Of a DNA stretch of 64,000 bases, positions 48,797-57,409 are shown in pieces. Below the pieces are notes generated by a model. The model worked only from the letters and a program-made list of their open reading frames with translations, was not told the DNA's origin and did no database searches. Numbering within the stretch: position 1 is the stretch's first letter; every line of letters starts with the position of its first letter. The stretch spans positions 2,418,001 through 2,482,000 of the forward strand of contig NZ_CP117812.1 in NCBI RefSeq assembly GCF_028728065.1. Reading direction: 5' to 3'. The translations under genes and the position numbers were made by a program. Source of the stretch: Lentisphaera profundi (lineage in GTDB: Bacteria; Verrucomicrobiota; Lentisphaeria; Lentisphaerales; Lentisphaeraceae).

Positions 48797-48844
48797 TCTT
48801 ATTAGGTACTAAATAAGAAGTTTTTTAGCCAAGACACCGCAAGA

Positions 48845-48874
48845 TTGTTGCATTTATGCGAAAAAGAATATAAA
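48845..48874 (+). promoter_or_regulatory. Candidate promoter for the ECF sigma/FecR operon
   Basis: TTGTTG (48845-48850) and TATAAA (48869-48874) are separated by 18 bases and end about 25 bases before the sigma factor start. The -35 is weak, and ECF factors often use their own promoter, so this assignment is tentative. GGTGA at 48891 is the ribosome site. Confidence 0.35.
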
Positions 48875-48899: not shown

Positions 48900-49445
48900 A
48901 TGAATCAATACATTAATGATGTGCTCAATGGCAAGACTGAATCCTACCGACTTCTCGTTCGCCAACTTGCTCCATCCTTACGCTCATATTTGTCTGGACG
49001 CCTCAGTGACTTCCATTTAGTAGAGGATCTCTCTCAAGAAATTTTTATTACCGTTTACCAATCACTAGAGAAGTTTGACCCCAAATACGATTTCAGAAGC
49101 TGGTTTTTTACAATTGCCCGCAATAAGCTCAATTCTCATCTAAGAAAGGTTTACTCCAAAAAGAGTATGAAATTTGCTTTTGAGGAAGAAATCCAAAACT
49201 TAGTAGCCGAGGTCTGTGATGACGACCCACAACGCGAAGGTAAACTGGAGCATATCCAATCCTGCGTAGCTAAGCTCCCCGAAGATGCACTCGAACTCAT
49301 CAAATCGCGTTATTACACCAATGAGACTGTCATCAGTCTAGCTGAGCGCCTCAATAGCACTGAAAATGCCATCAGCTCAAAACTTTTTAGAATCAGAAAA
49401 AACCTCAAGGACTGCCTCAGCGCAGAACTCATCGGCCATGAATAA
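48900..49445 (+). CDS. ECF-type RNA polymerase sigma factor
   Basis: The 181-residue protein has sigma region 2 (about 22-85) with VEDLSQEIFITVYQSL and the -10 recognition stretch YDFRSWFFTIARNKLNSHLR, and region 4 (about 125-170) with AERLNSTENAISSKLFRIRK. There is no sigma 1.1 or region 3, as expected of the extracytoplasmic-function group. It resembles the Rhodopirellula/Verrucomicrobium-type sigma factors of PVC bacteria. It overlaps the downstream FecR-type anti-sigma gene by 8 bases. Its regulon is unknown; nearby candidates are the esterase and dehydrogenase genes. Confidence 0.92.
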   Translation: MNQYINDVLNGKTESYRLLVRQLAPSLRSYLSGRLSDFHLVEDLSQEIFITVYQSLEKFDPKYDFRSWFFTIARNKLNSHLRKVYSKKSMKFAFEEEIQNLVAEVCDDDPQREGKLEHIQSCVAKLPEDALELIKSRYYTNETVISLAERLNSTENAISSKLFRIRKNLKDCLSAELIGHE

Positions 49446-50778
49446 TCTGCAAAAACTCAATATCGAGAAATATCTAGATGGCGACCTATCCGAGCAAGAG
49501 CTCATTGCTTTTTTAGAAGAACTACGCGAAGACCGGGAACTCATTCATGAGCTCAACTTAGCCATGGAAATCAAGGGATTACTCTTCACTTCTCAGCGTC
49601 CCAAGTTTCACGCTCTCGAAGAAGAAGTCATGAATCACCTGGAAAGCGACACATCTTCTATGGAAGATCAGATTATGGAAAAACTTCCCGAACCCAAAGT
49701 TCATAAATTTCCCGTCTGGTTTAAGCGTGCCGTAGCAGCGCAAATCATTCTCATCCCGATTCTCTTTTTCATCCTCACCCCTGCAAAAATACAAGAGGCT
49801 CCACCAGTTCTCATCGGCCATGTGCATAAAGTTGGTTTCGATAGCTTTGTCCTTCGCGGTACAGAAAAAGTCAATATCCGTAAGGGTGACCCGCTCTATA
49901 GCAAAGATCAAATCTATGTCCAAAACGAAAGTTCCTTGGGCATGAAATACCTAGATGGCTCTACTCTAAAGTTTTCCAGTCAATCTTTTGTTCGTTTAAG
50001 TGAAACCGAAGGACAAAAACGAGTGGAGCTCTTCTCTGGTGTGCTCGATGCGGACATCGCAAAACAGCCCCCTGGTAAAGATATGATTATTACGACTGAG
50101 CACTCCGAATGCGAAGTCATTGGCACACAATTCACCCTATCCTCCTCAAATGTTTCATCATTACTCGATGTTACCGAAGGTGCCGTTCGCTACAATAAAA
50201 TAAAAAGTGATAAATCTGTCATGGTCGAAGCCGATCACTATGCATCAGCTAGCCAAGATGAATCTCTAGAACTCAACAAAAATACCAAGCCACTTTACAA
50301 GAGTCCACTTGTCACTTACTTCACACCAGGTAAAACAACATCTATTGAAGTCGAACTTCACGGCGCACGTTCACTTTATTTAGTAGTTAGTAATGGCGAT
50401 AATGGTATCAGCCACGATCACTCAGCATGGATTGACCCGAAAATCATTGGTCCAGCAGGAGAACTTAGCCTTACTGAACTTCCCATGAAAATAGCTAAGG
50501 CTGGTTATGCTGAGGTCGAAGTGAATGGTGGCATTTACGGTGGCCCATTGCGTGTCAATGGTGTAGATCACCCCATTGGCATTGCCGCTCACGCAACTTC
50601 CGTTATTGCTTGGGATATCCCCCCAGGTTATAACACTTTTGTAGCTGATGGCGTCATACTCGACAGTGCCAACCAACGCAATAACCCCAAGCATCACGAA
50701 TCCGTTCAATTCGAAGTCTACACCGCTATCCCCGAGAAAAAACTCAAGGGACTTCTGATTAGAAAACGTCGCTTCTAA
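49438..50778 (+). CDS. FecR-type anti-sigma regulator with C-terminal NPCBM-like carbohydrate-binding module
   Basis: From the ATG at 49438 the protein has 446 residues and overlaps the sigma gene by 8 bases. A helical cytoplasmic domain opens IEKYLDGDLSEQELIAFLEE; it resembles anti-sigma domains but lacks the zinc His-x3-Cys-x2-Cys. One membrane helix lies near 100-120 (AAQIILIPILFFILTPA), then a FecR domain (TEGAVRYNKI region), then an NPCBM-like C-terminal module from about 325 (GGPLRVNGVDHPIGIAAHAT). It may hold the sigma factor at the membrane and sense a sugar or surface ligand outside (inference). The same module occurs in the dehydrogenase at 53489. Confidence 0.85.
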   Translation: MNNLQKLNIEKYLDGDLSEQELIAFLEELREDRELIHELNLAMEIKGLLFTSQRPKFHALEEEVMNHLESDTSSMEDQIMEKLPEPKVHKFPVWFKRAVAAQIILIPILFFILTPAKIQEAPPVLIGHVHKVGFDSFVLRGTEKVNIRKGDPLYSKDQIYVQNESSLGMKYLDGSTLKFSSQSFVRLSETEGQKRVELFSGVLDADIAKQPPGKDMIITTEHSECEVIGTQFTLSSSNVSSLLDVTEGAVRYNKIKSDKSVMVEADHYASASQDESLELNKNTKPLYKSPLVTYFTPGKTTSIEVELHGARSLYLVVSNGDNGISHDHSAWIDPKIIGPAGELSLTELPMKIAKAGYAEVEVNGGIYGGPLRVNGVDHPIGIAAHATSVIAWDIPPGYNTFVADGVILDSANQRNNPKHHESVQFEVYTAIPEKKLKGLLIRKRRF

Positions 50779-50835
50779 TTCTGTTAATGAAGTTAAATCA
50801 ATATGGACTTAGATGAACTCTAAGTTAAAGTAAGG

Positions 50836-51486
50836 CTATGTTCCAGTTGCAGGTGTTTTGAGAACGAAAGCGAGTTTTATAAGCTCAAGCGGAGCTGAGA
50901 CCCTTCGAGTGTGAAGCTCATTACACCAAGCAAGGTAGTGATCTAAGTAATTAGTCGCAACTCCGTGGAATCGTTTAATCCAGTTTTTGAGTACACTGTG
51001 ATAAGCGTTAACATTTTGAATGTGATAAACACCCTTTTTCTTCTGACCTTGACTGAGATTTATCGCTATATGTTCAATCTTTTCTCGTTGAGAAAAGGCC
51101 GTAAATGACTTGGCTGAATCGCTTATGAAAATCACTTGATCATCAAGGTGTTGTTTAAAGTTATCCTGTAACCATTGGCATGAAAGCGGTCCCATTCCAG
51201 TTATGTAATCAGCCTTATGACCACTTCTGTCACAAGCAACTAAAACTGAAACAAGCTCTTTTGATAAACCTCTTTTCTTCGCTTTTCCACCTCGTTTTCG
51301 TGGTGGACGATTGAGGTGCTTTTCTCCTTTCTGTGATTTAAGAAAAAAGGTTTCATCGGCTTCAACGATTCCCGATAGGACTTGAGTTTCACTTTCCCGG
51401 TCGTTATGCACAGTTTTATTCTGTGAAGTAGTTTCTTCACTATCAAAAGGGGAATTTCCTAGCACCCTGAAGTAAAAGATGCGCAC
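50836..51486 (-). pseudogene. Truncated IS1595/ISXO2-type transposase remnant
   Basis: An open frame of 216 codons carries the C-terminal catalytic half of an ISXO2-like transposase: GIVEADETFFLKSQKGEKH (first Asp), HLNRPPRKRGGKAKKRGLSK, IFISDSAKSF (second Asp) and NAYHSVLKNWIKRFHGVA (Asn/Lys end). Full proteins of this family are about 300 residues with an N-terminal zinc ribbon; that part is absent, and the first 35 codons do not resemble it. The frame opens inside the terminator hairpin of the neighbouring esterase gene. No clear terminal inverted repeats were found, so mobility is unlikely. It lies between two genes that may belong together. Confidence 0.85.
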
Positions 51487-51502
51487 ATGGATGATGTGCG
51501 CA
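51480..51502 (-). terminator. Terminator of the sialate O-acetylesterase gene
   Basis: TGCGCACAT (51480-51488) and ATGTGCGCA (51494-51502) form a perfect 9-bp stem with a five-base loop. On the minus strand it is followed by TCTTTTACTT. It lies 10 bases past the esterase stop. Confidence 0.7.
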
Positions 51503-51512
51503 AGGACAATTA

Positions 51513-53075
51513 CTATTTCAGTTCAAAACTAAAAGGACTCGCTGGTAAGCCTTCTTTATTATAGAGGTTCATGCCTTGTGGGTTCATGTAATAGGCGTAG
51601 CGTACGCCCTTTGCCTGCTTGACGTTTTTATGAGAGAAAACCACCGTATTCCCAATAATCACGGCATCAGCTTTGTGCCACTTATTATCTGCGCCTTTAA
51701 TGGAGGCCCAACTGACGGATTTATCTGAATTTTGCACCGGTAAAGCAAGTCCTTTTTTGCTTGCGAGCATTAAACCACTGCCAACACTATCAAAACTTAC
51801 AATGGCCTTGTTACCATCTACTGTCATTTCCTTAAAGATGGGACCACTATAGATAAGATCCTTTTTACCATAATCTTTAGCTAGAGCCCAATAGGCTAAG
51901 CGTTTTCCCACATCTTGTTTATTGCGCGGATGAATGTCCTTAGCTTCACCAATGTCTACAGTTACCGCCATGCCAGTATTGTTAAGCTTAAGCGTATCGA
52001 GTTGTGCTTGTCTTAAGGGTGCCCAACCATCACCACCATTGGGGTCATTGGGATTTGAGTTTCCGAGATTAGCCAACTGAACATAATAGAAAGGAAGCTG
52101 CTCGTTCTCAAAAGCTTTTCTCCAACCTTTGATAAGCGCTAGCATTTTGTGCATATAAGAACTGCCTTCGCCGCCATTTGATTCACCCTGATACCAAATA
52201 GCGCCCTTGATAGAGAGGGGAACAATGGGGTTTATCATCGCATTATAAAGATAAGTAGGATCTTGGTGGCTATGACCTAGAGTGGGTTCTTGTGGGGTCA
52301 CTGCTAAGGCTGCATTTTCAGCTAAAGATTTATCCGCATTAGTGATCCATGCTTTCATCTCAGTTACATATTGCTTATAAGCTTTGTTGCCGCTAATCGT
52401 TTGTGGGTTCACACTATCAACTTTTAGGGCTAAAGCTTTGAGTTCTGGTACGCTATGAAAGCCAGTGGGATTAATCCATGGTTCAATGCGAGTGCCTCCC
52501 CAATTGATCGATAAAATGCCAATGGGTACTTTTTGATCTTGGTAGATTTCTCGCGCAAAAAAGTAGGCGACCGCAGAAAAGTGTTTGACGTTTTCGGGGG
52601 TGCAAATCTTCCAGTCACCATGGTTGTCGCTTTGCATTTTTTTACTGAATTTATGCTGTGCTTTGAAGTGACGAATTTCAGGAAAATGGGCGGCTTGACT
52701 TTCCTGTTGTGCATTGGTACAATTGGCGAGCGTCCACTCCATATTGGATTGCCCTGAACAAAGCCACACATCACCGGAAAGAACATTGTTGAGTTGTACA
52801 GAATTATCGCCCTTAAAACTAATATTGTGTGGTCCGCCCGCTTTGGGAGTTTTTAATCGAATCATCCATTTGCCATCTTTTCCCGCTATTGTGCTGGCGC
52901 CAGATCCCCAACTTGTAGAGATTTTGATTTTTTCGCCAGGCGATGCGGTTCCCCATATCGGCGCATTCGCATTGCGTTGAATAACCATCTTGTTATTGAA
53001 GATTTTCGGGAGTTTAATATCTGCCTGTAGACTACAAAAACTGACTACAAGAATGACATAAATTAACTTGTTCAT
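51513..53075 (-). CDS. Secreted sialate O-acetylesterase-like carbohydrate esterase (SGNH family)
   Basis: The 520-residue protein has a signal peptide (LIYVILVVSFCSLQA), an N-terminal beta domain and the SASA-type hydrolase core: the nucleophile Ser in DVWLCSGQSNMEWTL, the region PFYYVQLANLG, and the Asp/His end GEAKDIHPRNKQDVG. It would remove acetyl groups from sialic acid or other acetylated sugars or polysaccharides in the periplasm or outside. AGGAG precedes the ATG, and a terminator follows the stop. No sialic-acid operon is visible, so the acetylated substrate may be an algal polysaccharide (inference). Confidence 0.92.
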   Translation of the reverse strand: MNKLIYVILVVSFCSLQADIKLPKIFNNKMVIQRNANAPIWGTASPGEKIKISTSWGSGASTIAGKDGKWMIRLKTPKAGGPHNISFKGDNSVQLNNVLSGDVWLCSGQSNMEWTLANCTNAQQESQAAHFPEIRHFKAQHKFSKKMQSDNHGDWKICTPENVKHFSAVAYFFAREIYQDQKVPIGILSINWGGTRIEPWINPTGFHSVPELKALALKVDSVNPQTISGNKAYKQYVTEMKAWITNADKSLAENAALAVTPQEPTLGHSHQDPTYLYNAMINPIVPLSIKGAIWYQGESNGGEGSSYMHKMLALIKGWRKAFENEQLPFYYVQLANLGNSNPNDPNGGDGWAPLRQAQLDTLKLNNTGMAVTVDIGEAKDIHPRNKQDVGKRLAYWALAKDYGKKDLIYSGPIFKEMTVDGNKAIVSFDSVGSGLMLASKKGLALPVQNSDKSVSWASIKGADNKWHKADAVIIGNTVVFSHKNVKQAKGVRYAYYMNPQGMNLYNKEGLPASPFSFELK

Positions 53076-53260
53076 TTGTGCTCCTATATTTGTGAGGTTT
53101 TTACCATCGTTCTTATTAGCTTTTGTTAAATATCCTAATGCGACAAGCTATATACCTTATACGTCTATTGAGGACATTTTTTGACAGTACTTCACGTGAA
53201 TCTCTTCTTTTGATGGCGCTATACCTATTTAAATACAAGTAAATAAGCTGGGAGATATGG

Positions 53261-53350
53261 ATGGAAGATTATTGGGACCGATATAATTCCGATTATCAGA
53301 GTCAATTAAAGAAAATCAAACAAGATAAAGAGGCTTCAATAACTCATTAA
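53261..53350 (+). CDS. Possible 29-residue peptide in the esterase/dehydrogenase intergenic region
   Basis: In the 413-base gap 53076-53488 a short frame begins with ATG at 53261, six bases after GGGAG, and encodes a Tyr/Lys/Asp-rich peptide (MEDYWDRYNSDYQSQLKK...). It is polar, with no membrane segment. Short chance frames are common, and nothing else supports it. The rest of the gap holds a TTGACA (53181) without a matching -10 and no other gene. Confidence 0.3.
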   Translation: MEDYWDRYNSDYQSQLKKIKQDKEASITH

Positions 53351-53488
53351 GTATCAAAAACTAGTGAAAAAACCAGATGTTTCTTATTTATGATCAGCTA
53401 AGATTCTTATTTTTAAAAATTGTAGCACGCAAGATTGTATACTTATTGCGTATTCATTCAGTAGATAAATTAATTATTAGGAGCTCAA

Positions 53489-56400
53489 ATGCTAAAAAAA
53501 CTCATTGCCCTCACATGCCTCGCCGCGTGTTCCTTTGCCGCAGACAAGGCAAAAGTTATTCTCATTGCTGGTCAAGATAGCCACGGACCAGGTGATCACG
53601 AATTCCTCGCGGGCTGCACCATCTTAAAAAAGAAACTTGATGCCTCCATGGGCGATAAGATCGAAACTATTTTAGTTGAAAAAAATTGGCCCGCAGATGA
53701 AAGTATTTTTGAAGGCGCCGATGCGATAGTTATTTATTCGGATGGCCTCGGTCGTCACCCCATAAAAGACAAACAGGCCTTCATTGGCAAACTCATGGAC
53801 AAAGGTGTTGGCCTCGCGATGATGCATTTCGCTTGTGACGTCCCAAAGGGCGCACAAGGCGAGAACTTTAAAAAATGGATTGGTGGTCACTATGAAACAA
53901 AATGGTCCACCAACCCTCATTGGACTTGTGATTCCATCCTTCATAAAACTCATCCTATATCAAAAAGCGTAAAAAACTTTTCGGTCAATGACGAATGGTA
54001 CTTCAATATGCGCTGGGCGGACACTCCTTTCCATACGAATATTCTTCAAGGAATCCCCACTAAGGAAACTCGCGCAGATAGAAGGAGTTACCCACATATT
54101 GCCGCTGACGAAGGTCGCAAAGAAACTGTCATGTGGTCAGTAGAAAGAAAAGATGGTGGTCGTGGCTTTGGCTTCACTGGTGGTCACAATCATGCCAACT
54201 GGGCGAATGATGAATACCGTAAGCTTGTCCTCAATGCAATTGTTTGGCTTGCCAAAGTTGACGTACCTACTGATGGCGTGGCTTCCACGACACCAACTGA
54301 AGCTGAATTAACGCACCTCACCAAAATGGATCGTGGCGTTATTAAAGCCAAGAAGAAAAAGAAGCCGGTTCAAAAACAAACTCTAAGTAAAAAGCCCTCG
54401 ACTTTTTTATATGAAAGTAAGATCATCAAAAAGAATGAATCTGTCGATATCTCATTAGACCTCAAGGGTCGTAAAGAAATCGTTCTTTATAATGGCAATG
54501 GTGGGGATGACATTAATTTCGATCACGCCCTATGGGTAAACCCTCGCTTTGTAGGTCCCAAGGGTGAACTTCCACTCAATAAACTTAAATGGATCCAGGC
54601 TAAATCTGGTTGGAAAACGCCTCAACTAGGCAAAACTGTTGATGGAAAAACTTATTCCGAAAATGGAACCGTTATTTCCAATGTGATTGGCACACACGCC
54701 GTCAGTATGATTCAATATAAAGTCCCTAATGGTTATACCACTTTTAAGGCCACAGGACGTTTGAGCTCTGGCTCAAGATCTAAGGGCAGTGCGACTTTTG
54801 CGATACTTCCAAATTATGTTGCTCCCATTGACACAAATATCGGCGCCACCTTGGTTCCACTAGATTTATTTGAAACTCACGAACAATTAGAAGCCACAGT
54901 ATGGGCAACTTCGCCTATGTTCTATAATCCCACTAATATGGATATCGATGACAAGGGACGTATCTGGGTTGCCGAGGGTATTAATTACCGTAATTTCCGC
55001 AGACCTAAAATAAACATCAAACATCCTGAGGGCGATCGCATCATGGTTCTCGAAGATAGTAATGGTGATGGCAAAGCTGATAAAAGCCATGTCTTTGTCC
55101 AAGATAAAGAACTCCATGCACCCTTAGGTGTTGCGGTCATCGGTAATAAAATTATCATTTCACAACCGCCCTCTCTCATTATGTATACCGATGTTGATGG
55201 CAATGCCAAATTTGATCCCAAAATTGACAAAAAAGAAAATTTCCTCACGGGCTTCAGCGGACTCGATCACGACCATAGCTTACACTCTGTCACCTTTGGT
55301 CCCGATGGTGAATACTATTTCAACCAAGGCAATGCTGGTTACTCTGAAGTCACTGATAAAAATGGCTTCACCGTCCGTGCGGGTAGTTCATACTCTGGCG
55401 GCGCTCCATCAGTAACAAGTAATAAATCCGGTGAGATTAGTGATGACGGCCATGTCTATGTTGGTGGATTCTCTTGTCGAATTAAACCCGATGGTACAGG
55501 CTTAACCGTCATTGGTCATAATTACCGCAACAGTTACGAACAAACTGTGAGTTCCTTTGGCGATGTTTTCCAAAATGATAATGACGATCCCCCCGCTTGT
55601 CGTACAACTTGGCTTATGGAATACGGTAATGCTGGTTTTTCTTCAGCTGATGGTACGCGTAAATGGAAACTCGATAAACGCCCTGGACAAGATGTAGCTA
55701 CTGCTGAATGGCGTCAGGAAGATCCCGGTACAATCCCTGCAGGTGATGTCTATGGTGGTGGTGCTCCAACAGGAATCACCTACTATGAAAACGGCGCTCT
55801 AGGCAAAAAGTATGAAGGTCTTCTCCTGTCCTGTGAATCCGTTCACAGTGTAGTTTTTGGCTACATGCCCAAAGCTCAAAAGGCTGGTTTTGAACTCAAA
55901 CGCTTTAATTTCTTTAATTCTATAAAAGGAAATGCCACTGCAAAGTGGTTTCGCCCTTCAGATGTAACTGTTGGTTCTGATGGCGCTATCTATGTCTCTG
56001 ATTGGTATGATCCAGGCGTCGGCGGTCACGCCATGCGTGATGCTAGCGGCAGTGGTACCATCTACCGTATCGCTCCTAAAGGCTTCAAACCCGTCAATCC
56101 TAAAATTGATTGCTCAACAATCGCAGGTGCTATTGCGGCTCTCAAGAGCCCGAATATCAACGTACGTGCTCTGGGCTTCATTAAACTCAAAGAAGACGGT
56201 TCAAAATCCATCCCCGCACTTAAAGTGATGCTCTCCGACTCTAACAAATACTTTCGTGCTCGTGCGGTATGGCTCCTCGCACAAATTGCTGGTGCTGGGT
56301 TACAAGAAGTCGAAGCTTTATTAAAGAGCCCAGAGGAACAAATGCGCACAGTCGCTTATCGCGCCTTGCGTCGTCAAAATTATAAGTTTTGGGAACTCTC

Positions 56401-57409
56401 TGCGCAACTCGCAAAAGATTCTTCTCCTGCAGTTCGTCGTGAAGTGGCCCTCGCTATGCGCAACGAAAACTTTGCACAAAGTCATAAAATTCTTTTAACT
56501 ATTGCTCAGCAATTCGACGGTGTCGATCGCTGGTATTTAGAAGCCCTCGGTACTGGCTGTGCAAAAAAAGAAAAAGAGATGTATGATTACTTATACTCCA
56601 AGATGAAACCTGGAGATGCTCTTACTTGGTCACCTGCCTTTGCAAAAATTGCTTGGCGCCTCCATCAGCCAAACGCTCTTAGCGATTTCCGCAAACGTGC
56701 ACAAGCAGGCGAACTTAACTTTGATCAACGCAAAGAAAATTTGGTCGCTATAGCCTTTGTCGACACCAAAGAAGCGGCAGAGCTTATGCTCGATATTGCT
56801 AATAACGGCCCACAAGATACACAAGAACTCGCTACTTGGTGGATTCGCAACAAAGAAACTAGCACTTGGAAAGATTATAAACTCGCTGGCCACTTGACCG
56901 CATCAGTGAAAAAGAAAAAAGCTCTTGATCTCTCTAAGCATTTAAGTAAAAGCAATGGTAAACTTCCTGCCATCAGCAAAATCTTGAAGCTCAAAGGGAA
57001 TGCGAAAAATGGCCAAGTTCTGTTCAATAGTAAAGCCATTTGCTTTAGCTGTCACAAAGTAGGAAATAAAGGGATGGATGTCGGACCTAACCTCAGTGAT
57101 ATCGGCGGTAAATTTGGCAAAGACACATTGCTAGATGCTATGATTAACCCTTCTAATGCGATTTCATTCGGTTTTGAAACGGCCAATATAAAAACTAAAG
57201 ATGGCAAAGAATACAAAGGCTACTTTATCGACTCCGATTCCGATCCCTTAGTGATTCGTGATCTTGGTGGCAATCGCACAAATATTCCTAAAAAGAATAT
57301 TGCCAAAAAAGAAATGATGAAAGCATCTATCATGCCTTCAGTGAAAAACTTAAATCTCAATGCTCAAGAACTGGCAGACTTAACTGAATACCTTTCTACT
57401 TTGAAGTAA
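53489..57409 (+). CDS. Giant secreted ThuA/NPCBM/PSCyt-type dehydrogenase/HEAT/cytochrome c protein
   Basis: This 1306-residue protein starts with a signal peptide (LIALTCLAACSFA). Domains in order: a ThuA-like domain (about 20-265, KVILIAGQDSHGPGDHEF); an NPCBM-like module (about 340-445, FDHALWVNPRFVGPKGEL); a large beta-propeller of the PVC membrane-bound dehydrogenase type (about 455-880, MDIDDKGRIWVAEGINY and WYDPGVGGHAMRD); HEAT-like repeats (about 890-1130); and a cytochrome c domain with haem motif CFSCH at 1185 and DVGPNLSDIG. A periplasmic sugar or polyol oxidase is likely, passing electrons to its own haem. GGAG lies just before the ATG. Confidence 0.9.
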   Translation: MLKKLIALTCLAACSFAADKAKVILIAGQDSHGPGDHEFLAGCTILKKKLDASMGDKIETILVEKNWPADESIFEGADAIVIYSDGLGRHPIKDKQAFIGKLMDKGVGLAMMHFACDVPKGAQGENFKKWIGGHYETKWSTNPHWTCDSILHKTHPISKSVKNFSVNDEWYFNMRWADTPFHTNILQGIPTKETRADRRSYPHIAADEGRKETVMWSVERKDGGRGFGFTGGHNHANWANDEYRKLVLNAIVWLAKVDVPTDGVASTTPTEAELTHLTKMDRGVIKAKKKKKPVQKQTLSKKPSTFLYESKIIKKNESVDISLDLKGRKEIVLYNGNGGDDINFDHALWVNPRFVGPKGELPLNKLKWIQAKSGWKTPQLGKTVDGKTYSENGTVISNVIGTHAVSMIQYKVPNGYTTFKATGRLSSGSRSKGSATFAILPNYVAPIDTNIGATLVPLDLFETHEQLEATVWATSPMFYNPTNMDIDDKGRIWVAEGINYRNFRRPKINIKHPEGDRIMVLEDSNGDGKADKSHVFVQDKELHAPLGVAVIGNKIIISQPPSLIMYTDVDGNAKFDPKIDKKENFLTGFSGLDHDHSLHSVTFGPDGEYYFNQGNAGYSEVTDKNGFTVRAGSSYSGGAPSVTSNKSGEISDDGHVYVGGFSCRIKPDGTGLTVIGHNYRNSYEQTVSSFGDVFQNDNDDPPACRTTWLMEYGNAGFSSADGTRKWKLDKRPGQDVATAEWRQEDPGTIPAGDVYGGGAPTGITYYENGALGKKYEGLLLSCESVHSVVFGYMPKAQKAGFELKRFNFFNSIKGNATAKWFRPSDVTVGSDGAIYVSDWYDPGVGGHAMRDASGSGTIYRIAPKGFKPVNPKIDCSTIAGAIAALKSPNINVRALGFIKLKEDGSKSIPALKVMLSDSNKYFRARAVWLLAQIAGAGLQEVEALLKSPEEQMRTVAYRALRRQNYKFWELSAQLAKDSSPAVRREVALAMRNENFAQSHKILLTIAQQFDGVDRWYLEALGTGCAKKEKEMYDYLYSKMKPGDALTWSPAFAKIAWRLHQPNALSDFRKRAQAGELNFDQRKENLVAIAFVDTKEAAELMLDIANNGPQDTQELATWWIRNKETSTWKDYKLAGHLTASVKKKKALDLSKHLSKSNGKLPAISKILKLKGNAKNGQVLFNSKAICFSCHKVGNKGMDVGPNLSDIGGKFGKDTLLDAMINPSNAISFGFETANIKTKDGKEYKGYFIDSDSDPLVIRDLGGNRTNIPKKNIAKKEMMKASIMPSVKNLNLNAQELADLTEYLSTLK

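Follow-up and report, generated by a model that had tools for sequence, protein, structure and literature searches.

Anti-sigma factors tipped with carbohydrate-binding modules are already known. The RsgI/sigma-I biomass sensors of Clostridium thermocellum combine a membrane anti-sigma factor bearing an extracytoplasmic carbohydrate-binding module with a cognate sigma factor and autoregulation, and RsgI6 has a GH10 module that shares 57% identity with Xyn10D, an enzyme linked to sigma-I6 regulation (PMC4711584). In the ECF52 proteins, such as SCO4117 of Streptomyces, a zinc finger, a transmembrane segment and the carbohydrate module smart00776 accompany the sigma factor, activation by the module has been proposed and autoregulation is described (PMC5826349). 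Here, we describe a locus of the genus Lentisphaera (a genome of two contigs and 5.46 Mb, labelled G000), contained in a 64-kb stretch of DNA referred to below as the window, in which an extracytoplasmic-function (ECF) sigma factor and a FecR-type anti-sigma factor lie close to the gene for a large ThuA/heme dehydrogenase that shares with the FecR protein an NPCBM (CBM51) module in circularly permuted form. In SMART, smart00776 is the entry for NPCBM. We propose that the locus is probably a substrate-induction switch, in which a lectin-tipped FecR/ECF pair would regulate itself together with the dehydrogenase and a carbohydrate-oxidation regulon. What is new is the combination of a FecR protein, a separate ECF sigma factor and a permuted module; judged by analogy, the system would be a Gram-negative counterpart of the RsgI and ECF52 sensors, and it is a member of neither family.

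The sigma-factor gene (48900..49445, plus strand) encodes 181 residues that match Sigma70_r2 (E = 3.8e-16) and score above the cut-off of the sigma70-ECF model TIGR02937, with TIGR02989 as the best subfamily at a score slightly below its cut-off. Its 3' end overlaps the start of the FecR gene (49438..50778, plus strand), the product of which (446 residues; FecR PF04773, 39.4 bits) has a single transmembrane segment at around residues 95-117 (hydropathy peak 98-116), separating a predicted cytoplasmic N-terminal part from the FecR domain (158-251) and the C-terminal permuted NPCBM. An ECF sigma gene placed directly 5' of a gene for a single-pass FecR-domain protein is the arrangement of a sigma/anti-sigma pair. 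The predicted secreted dehydrogenase (53489..57409, plus strand; 1306 residues), delineated by Pfam and NCBIfam matches, has a signal-peptide-like start followed by ThuA, the permuted NPCBM, a TIGR02604/DUF7133 propeller, HEAT repeats and a TIGR02603 heme c domain with the motif CFSCH at residue 1185. Its scores for TIGR02604 (410 bits; cut-off 122.2) and TIGR02603 (121.5 bits; cut-off 68.15) make it a clear member of the PVC-type heme-binding CxxCH proteins, from which it differs in carrying ThuA and the inserted module.

The likeness to RsgI lies in a membrane anti-sigma factor that is tipped with a carbohydrate module, has its own sigma factor with predicted autoregulation and shares its module with an enzyme. 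RsgI proteins, however, join an RsgI N-terminal domain and a sigma-I partner to CBM3, PA14, GH10 or CBM42 modules at the Gram-positive cell surface, whereas the window pairs a FecR domain with an ECF sigma factor and would expose a permuted NPCBM to the periplasm. The ECF52 proteins likewise place sigma activity under a transmembrane segment and a carbohydrate-binding module and are autoregulated, but they unite sigma factor, zinc finger, transmembrane segment and module in one polypeptide, are restricted to Actinobacteria and have no described enzyme with the same module; in the window, the sigma factor and the FecR protein with its permuted NPCBM are separate. The ECF gene with its overlapping FecR-domain gene also recalls FecI/FecR cell-surface signalling, in which a TonB receptor is the usual source of the signal, whereas here the FecR protein bears its own lectin-like module; no TonB receptor with a signalling domain was found in the part of the neighbouring genes that was scanned. 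A literature search found nothing on FecR regulation in Lentisphaera and no description of how its many sulfatases and PVC-type heme dehydrogenases are regulated.

The original prediction, made from the letters of the window, held that the C-terminal part of the FecR protein and an internal part of the dehydrogenase are one NPCBM-like module, and proposed to align them. The alignment bears this out: FecR residues 286-405 match dehydrogenase residues 307-423 in BLASTP with 33% identity over 120 residues (E = 3e-17), both proteins exceed the cut-off (23.9 bits) of Pfam NPCBM PF08305 (CBM51) with 67.1 and 58.5 bits, respectively, and the motif pairs that had been listed (HDHSAW/FDHALW, IGPAGEL/VGPKGEL and GYNTF/GYTTF) are all present. 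The predicted location was also correct, but the modules are longer than the approximate bounds given for them (325-430 and 340-445), extending from residue 285 to 428 in the FecR protein and from 306 to 440 in the dehydrogenase. A feature that had been missed is that the two halves of the NPCBM are in swapped order in both proteins. In the FecR gene, the C-terminal half of the profile (84-136) comes first (50281..50445, plus strand; C2:2468281-2468445) and the N-terminal half (3-83) second (50464..50724, plus strand; C2:2468464-2468724); in the dehydrogenase gene, the corresponding stretches are 54404..54550 (profile 87-136; plus strand; C2:2472404-2472550) and 54572..54808 (profile 4-82; plus strand; C2:2472572-2472808). 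Neither native module therefore matches the profile in linear order; each gives two swapped stretches. Rotation in silico at the hinge yields a single stretch in each case, 3-136 (71.8 bits) for the FecR module and 4-136 (71.9 bits) for the enzyme module; both are thus circularly permuted NPCBM domains.

A profile built from 24 native-order modules and compared with the PDB gave convincing scores only for CBM51-type chains (2VMG, 2VMH, 7JS4, 7JRM, 7JRL and 8PVS), again with the halves swapped. The modules thus resemble CBM51/NPCBM (GH95CBM51, PDB code 2VMG) in sequence profile, conserved core and best PDB sequence matches, and differ in being permuted, the solved relatives found all being in canonical order; this profile search found no solved structure of a permuted NPCBM, a fold variant that is worth solving. 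AlphaFold2 models of the two modules were confident, with pLDDT values of 88 and 87. Foldseek, which aligns in sequence order, returned no significant sequential match in the PDB for either model; for the enzyme module, CBM51 entries were among the top matches, at TM scores below 0.3, low values that the permutation would explain given the sequential alignment. A literature search combining NPCBM with circular permutation gave a single paper, which concerns another superfamily and names NPCBM once. In GH27 alpha-galactosidases of Haloferula, rumen Lentisphaeria and further PVC genomes, permuted NPCBM modules are also placed between the catalytic domain and the C-terminal one (six loci checked with Pfam, namely L104, L105, L106, L109, L112 and L114, with about 20 further loci seen). 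A ThuA-DUF7133 protein elsewhere in G000 (locus L003, C2:679300-682950) carries an NPCBM in normal order, and both forms of the module were thus joined to this type of enzyme. Most of the FecR-NPCBM proteins have in common a C-terminal tail, PEKKLKxLLIR followed by a basic/aromatic end (50731-50775 in the window), which is predicted to be helical, is absent from the enzyme modules and may be a signalling or protease element.

The gene set recurs. G000 has 12 FecR, 26 DUF7133 and 22 ThuA places. The permuted NPCBM is found on two of the 12 FecR proteins, those of the window and of a paralogous locus, L009 (C1:70000-84000), and only the genes for these two have a ThuA-DUF7133 fusion gene at a distance of no more than 5 kb. 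At L009, the sigma factor, the FecR protein with permuted NPCBM and a 1211-residue ThuA/TIGR02604 dehydrogenase are encoded consecutively on the same strand. Four loci in three related genomes (one each in G001 and G004, two in G005) repeat the neighbourhood of a FecR-permuted-NPCBM gene and a ThuA or DUF7133 enzyme: G001 has a divergent 1015-residue and a downstream 1312-residue NPCBM dehydrogenase near the FecR gene, G005 locus a has a 1005-residue NPCBM dehydrogenase followed by ThuA/DUF7133, and at G004 locus b and G005 locus b a ThuA-NPCBM gene overlaps the end of the FecR gene. Each of the ten FecR-permuted-NPCBM loci examined has an ECF sigma gene 5' of FecR. In G000, a 1015-residue TIGR02604-like protein with a permuted NPCBM is also encoded at C2:1790603-1793650 (L010:5604-8651); proteins of this type are linked to sigma/FecR genes in G001 and G005, and that of G000 stands alone, without the promoter motif described next.

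A bipartite ECF-type motif, CGCAAGAT-N12-GCGWA, precedes the sigma and dehydrogenase genes in the three genomes of this genus (G000, G001 and G002). It has exactly two matches in the window, starting at 48838 and 53428: one predicted promoter (48838..48860, plus strand; GCG followed by AA) lies just 5' of the sigma gene and the other (53428..53450, plus strand; GCG followed by TA) just 5' of the dehydrogenase gene, and the latter is kept in the dehydrogenase orthologues of G001 and G002. A position weight matrix (PWM) trained solely on the G001 and G002 sites and applied to the window scored both of these exact matches at 20.4 bits; the next best site of the window reached 11.1, and the highest score in 20 random 64-kb sequences was 17.0. 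The paralogous type of motif, CGCAAGAT-N14-CGACTW, occurs before the sigma and dehydrogenase genes of L009 and, with small changes, at G005 locus a, as well as at G004 locus a. Among distinct exact sites within the loci examined of the three Lentisphaera genomes, the extended -10 (CGWA or CGACT) follows in 16 of 16 intergenic sites versus five of 31 coding sites (Fisher p = 1.4e-8), a comparison in which the sigma and dehydrogenase sites had helped to define the extended -10; with those sites and the G001 dehydrogenase-side site left out, the counts are 8/8 versus 5/31 (about 2e-5, calculated by hand). Matches at L069, L083 and L089 were rejected as promoters as they are located within coding sequence. 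The recurring linkage of sigma, FecR and ThuA-dehydrogenase genes, together with the common motif, argues for control of the dehydrogenase by the sigma/FecR pair.

Further intergenic sites enlarge the set of predicted targets. They precede S1 sulfatases at C2:124426 of G000, at its G002 homologue (at equal distance) and at C1:2481283 of G000; in G002 they are also found before a ThuA protein and an ApbE protein, and in G001 before a GFO/IDH/MocA oxidoreductase and before a PSCyt1/DUF1553-DUF1501 operon divergent from the dehydrogenase. Two motif-rich contigs of G004, C45 (six exact sites) and C111 (three), which hold loci L165, L166 and L167, have CGAC after the spacer in nine of nine sites and CGACTT in eight. 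These sites precede the sigma-FecR genes, a DUF1552/PSD4 operon, a DUF7133 protein, a gene cluster that includes sulfatases, and an operon for a TRAP transporter, an enolase-superfamily dehydratase, DGOK and a KDPG-type aldolase, the last two of which point to galactonate breakdown.

Sequence evidence thus covers the homology of the modules, their permutation, the sigma/anti-sigma pair, the repeated gene set and the common promoter motif, and a mechanism may be outlined on this basis. The ECF sigma factor would be held by the single-pass FecR anti-sigma factor, the periplasmic tip of which would act as a sugar-binding lectin module of the permuted NPCBM/CBM51 type. When the module binds a carbohydrate in the periplasm, probably a sugar or oligosaccharide that is sulfated or of galactose type, the FecR protein may change or undergo cleavage, which would free the sigma factor across the membrane. 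The freed sigma factor would read CGCAAGAT-N12-GCGWA before its own operon, creating positive feedback, and would also switch on the gene for the ThuA-NPCBM-heme dehydrogenase and a small number of distant genes, sulfatases among them. The idea of a switch inducing its own catabolic genes thus has support from sequence for the dehydrogenase, which shares the predicted promoter here, at L009 and in relatives, and none for the neighbouring acetylesterase (SASA PF03629; 51513..53075, minus strand), which sits between the FecR and dehydrogenase genes. The proposed search for a sigma promoter upstream of both genes likewise gave a predicted site for the dehydrogenase (53428, 20.4 bits) and none for the esterase, the upstream region of which lacks the motif and ranks 31st by PWM among the genes of the window. 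As its orthologues in G001 and G002 are also unlinked to the unit, the esterase was rejected as a member and is probably a bystander. Glycan sensing in this phylum becomes directly testable, now that a sigma/anti-sigma pair is defined, two promoter consensus sequences are available and the predicted targets form a short list.

Several observations weigh against a switch of this kind. No dehydrogenase of this type was seen adjacent to FecR in G003, in G008 or at G004 locus a, nor in G002, where the two genes are placed on separate contigs. The motif was not found before the 1015-residue NPCBM dehydrogenase of G000, and a promoter search upstream of the NPCBM dehydrogenases of this 1015-residue type gave no convincing site. 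The motif-rich contig of G004 carries a second sigma/FecR pair, which leaves the regulator of those genes uncertain. The Foldseek search gave no good sequential match to CBM51, so that the fold is not confirmed by that route, and the two window modules are only about 26-29% identical over the whole alignment, an ancient split that may have left them with different ligands. That the genes are mere chance neighbours, unrelated save for a common domain and brought together by rearrangement, is nevertheless very improbable. An IS1595-type transposase open reading frame (ORF; 50836..51486, minus strand; DDE_Tnp_IS1595, 1.3e-12) between the FecR and esterase genes does suggest rearrangement, and the intervening esterase is unlinked elsewhere, but the pattern recurs at L009 and in related genomes, and the promoter common to the orthologues, with the conserved linkage, already disfavours this explanation. 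The transposase ORF is outside the sigma/FecR/dehydrogenase unit; it had escaped the original prediction, which rightly placed the esterase between the FecR and dehydrogenase genes but put these 3 kb apart, the gap actually being 2.7 kb.

A doubtful but substantial alternative keeps the circuit and changes its ligand: the sigma factor would control the dehydrogenase, with the FecR and enzyme modules binding different sugars, for example a released product and an anchoring polymer, and the shared module reflecting common ancestry and not a common substrate. In a tree of 24 modules, those of FecR proteins form a group of their own (support 89/97), apart from the enzyme and GH27 modules, which means that the module joined FecR long ago; the tree gives no support for its having been copied recently from the neighbouring enzyme. 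This separation, like the low overall identity, speaks for different ligands, and modules of common fold and descent need not bind the same ligand. Both modules nonetheless keep an invariant core (DH..W, H, G and an aromatic residue after AKxG). The aromatic residue is Tyr in the FecR protein, the enzyme having Trp at this point, and by alignment it appears comparable to the Tyr/Trp platform that has been described in galactose-binding CBM51 (PMC9513282). A galactose-type ligand is plausible in view of the galactonate-type genes in G004, galactose binding by CBM51 (PMC9513282) and the permuted NPCBM of GH27 alpha-galactosidases. Lying in the inner membrane, the FecR protein would expose its module to periplasmic oligosaccharides or monosaccharides and not to intact polymer. 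We consider it unlikely that the FecR module is instead a protein-protein or envelope-sensing domain that binds no sugar and responds to envelope stress, heme or redox state. The missing fold-level confirmation by Foldseek would fit this, and the heme c of the enzymes makes a redox signal conceivable; on the other side stand the carbohydrate genes among the predicted targets, the GH27 enzymes with the same module and the lectin-fold ends of other FecR proteins in the genome. A sugar-responsive switch is the reading that we retain, and in it the module shared by sensor and enzyme offers a way to approach the substrate of the ThuA/TIGR02604 proteins, which are largely uncharacterised in function.

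All 12 FecR genes of G000 (L206-L214, L089, L009 and the window) lie behind an ECF sigma gene, as is the case for each of the ten without a permuted NPCBM, nine of which encode proteins ending in a LamG lectin-fold domain. The nine LamG-tipped and two permuted-NPCBM-tipped proteins may, on domain content, belong to a genome-wide family of lectin-tipped sensors. More tentatively, and with confidence a little below even, we suggest that lectin-tipped FecR/ECF pairs form a family of one-component glycan sensors in Lentisphaera and its relatives, that the permuted NPCBM would be a distinct CBM subfamily, as yet without a solved structure, used by both the sensor and the enzyme it induces, and that paralogous sigma factors might be insulated by a one-base shift in spacing together with a different -10 (N12-GCGWA versus N14-CGACTW, that is 13 versus 14 bases before CG). 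Near the motif copies of G004, several pilin-like secreted ORFs with prepilin-type N-termini (235-263 residues) are present at L166:9734-13508.

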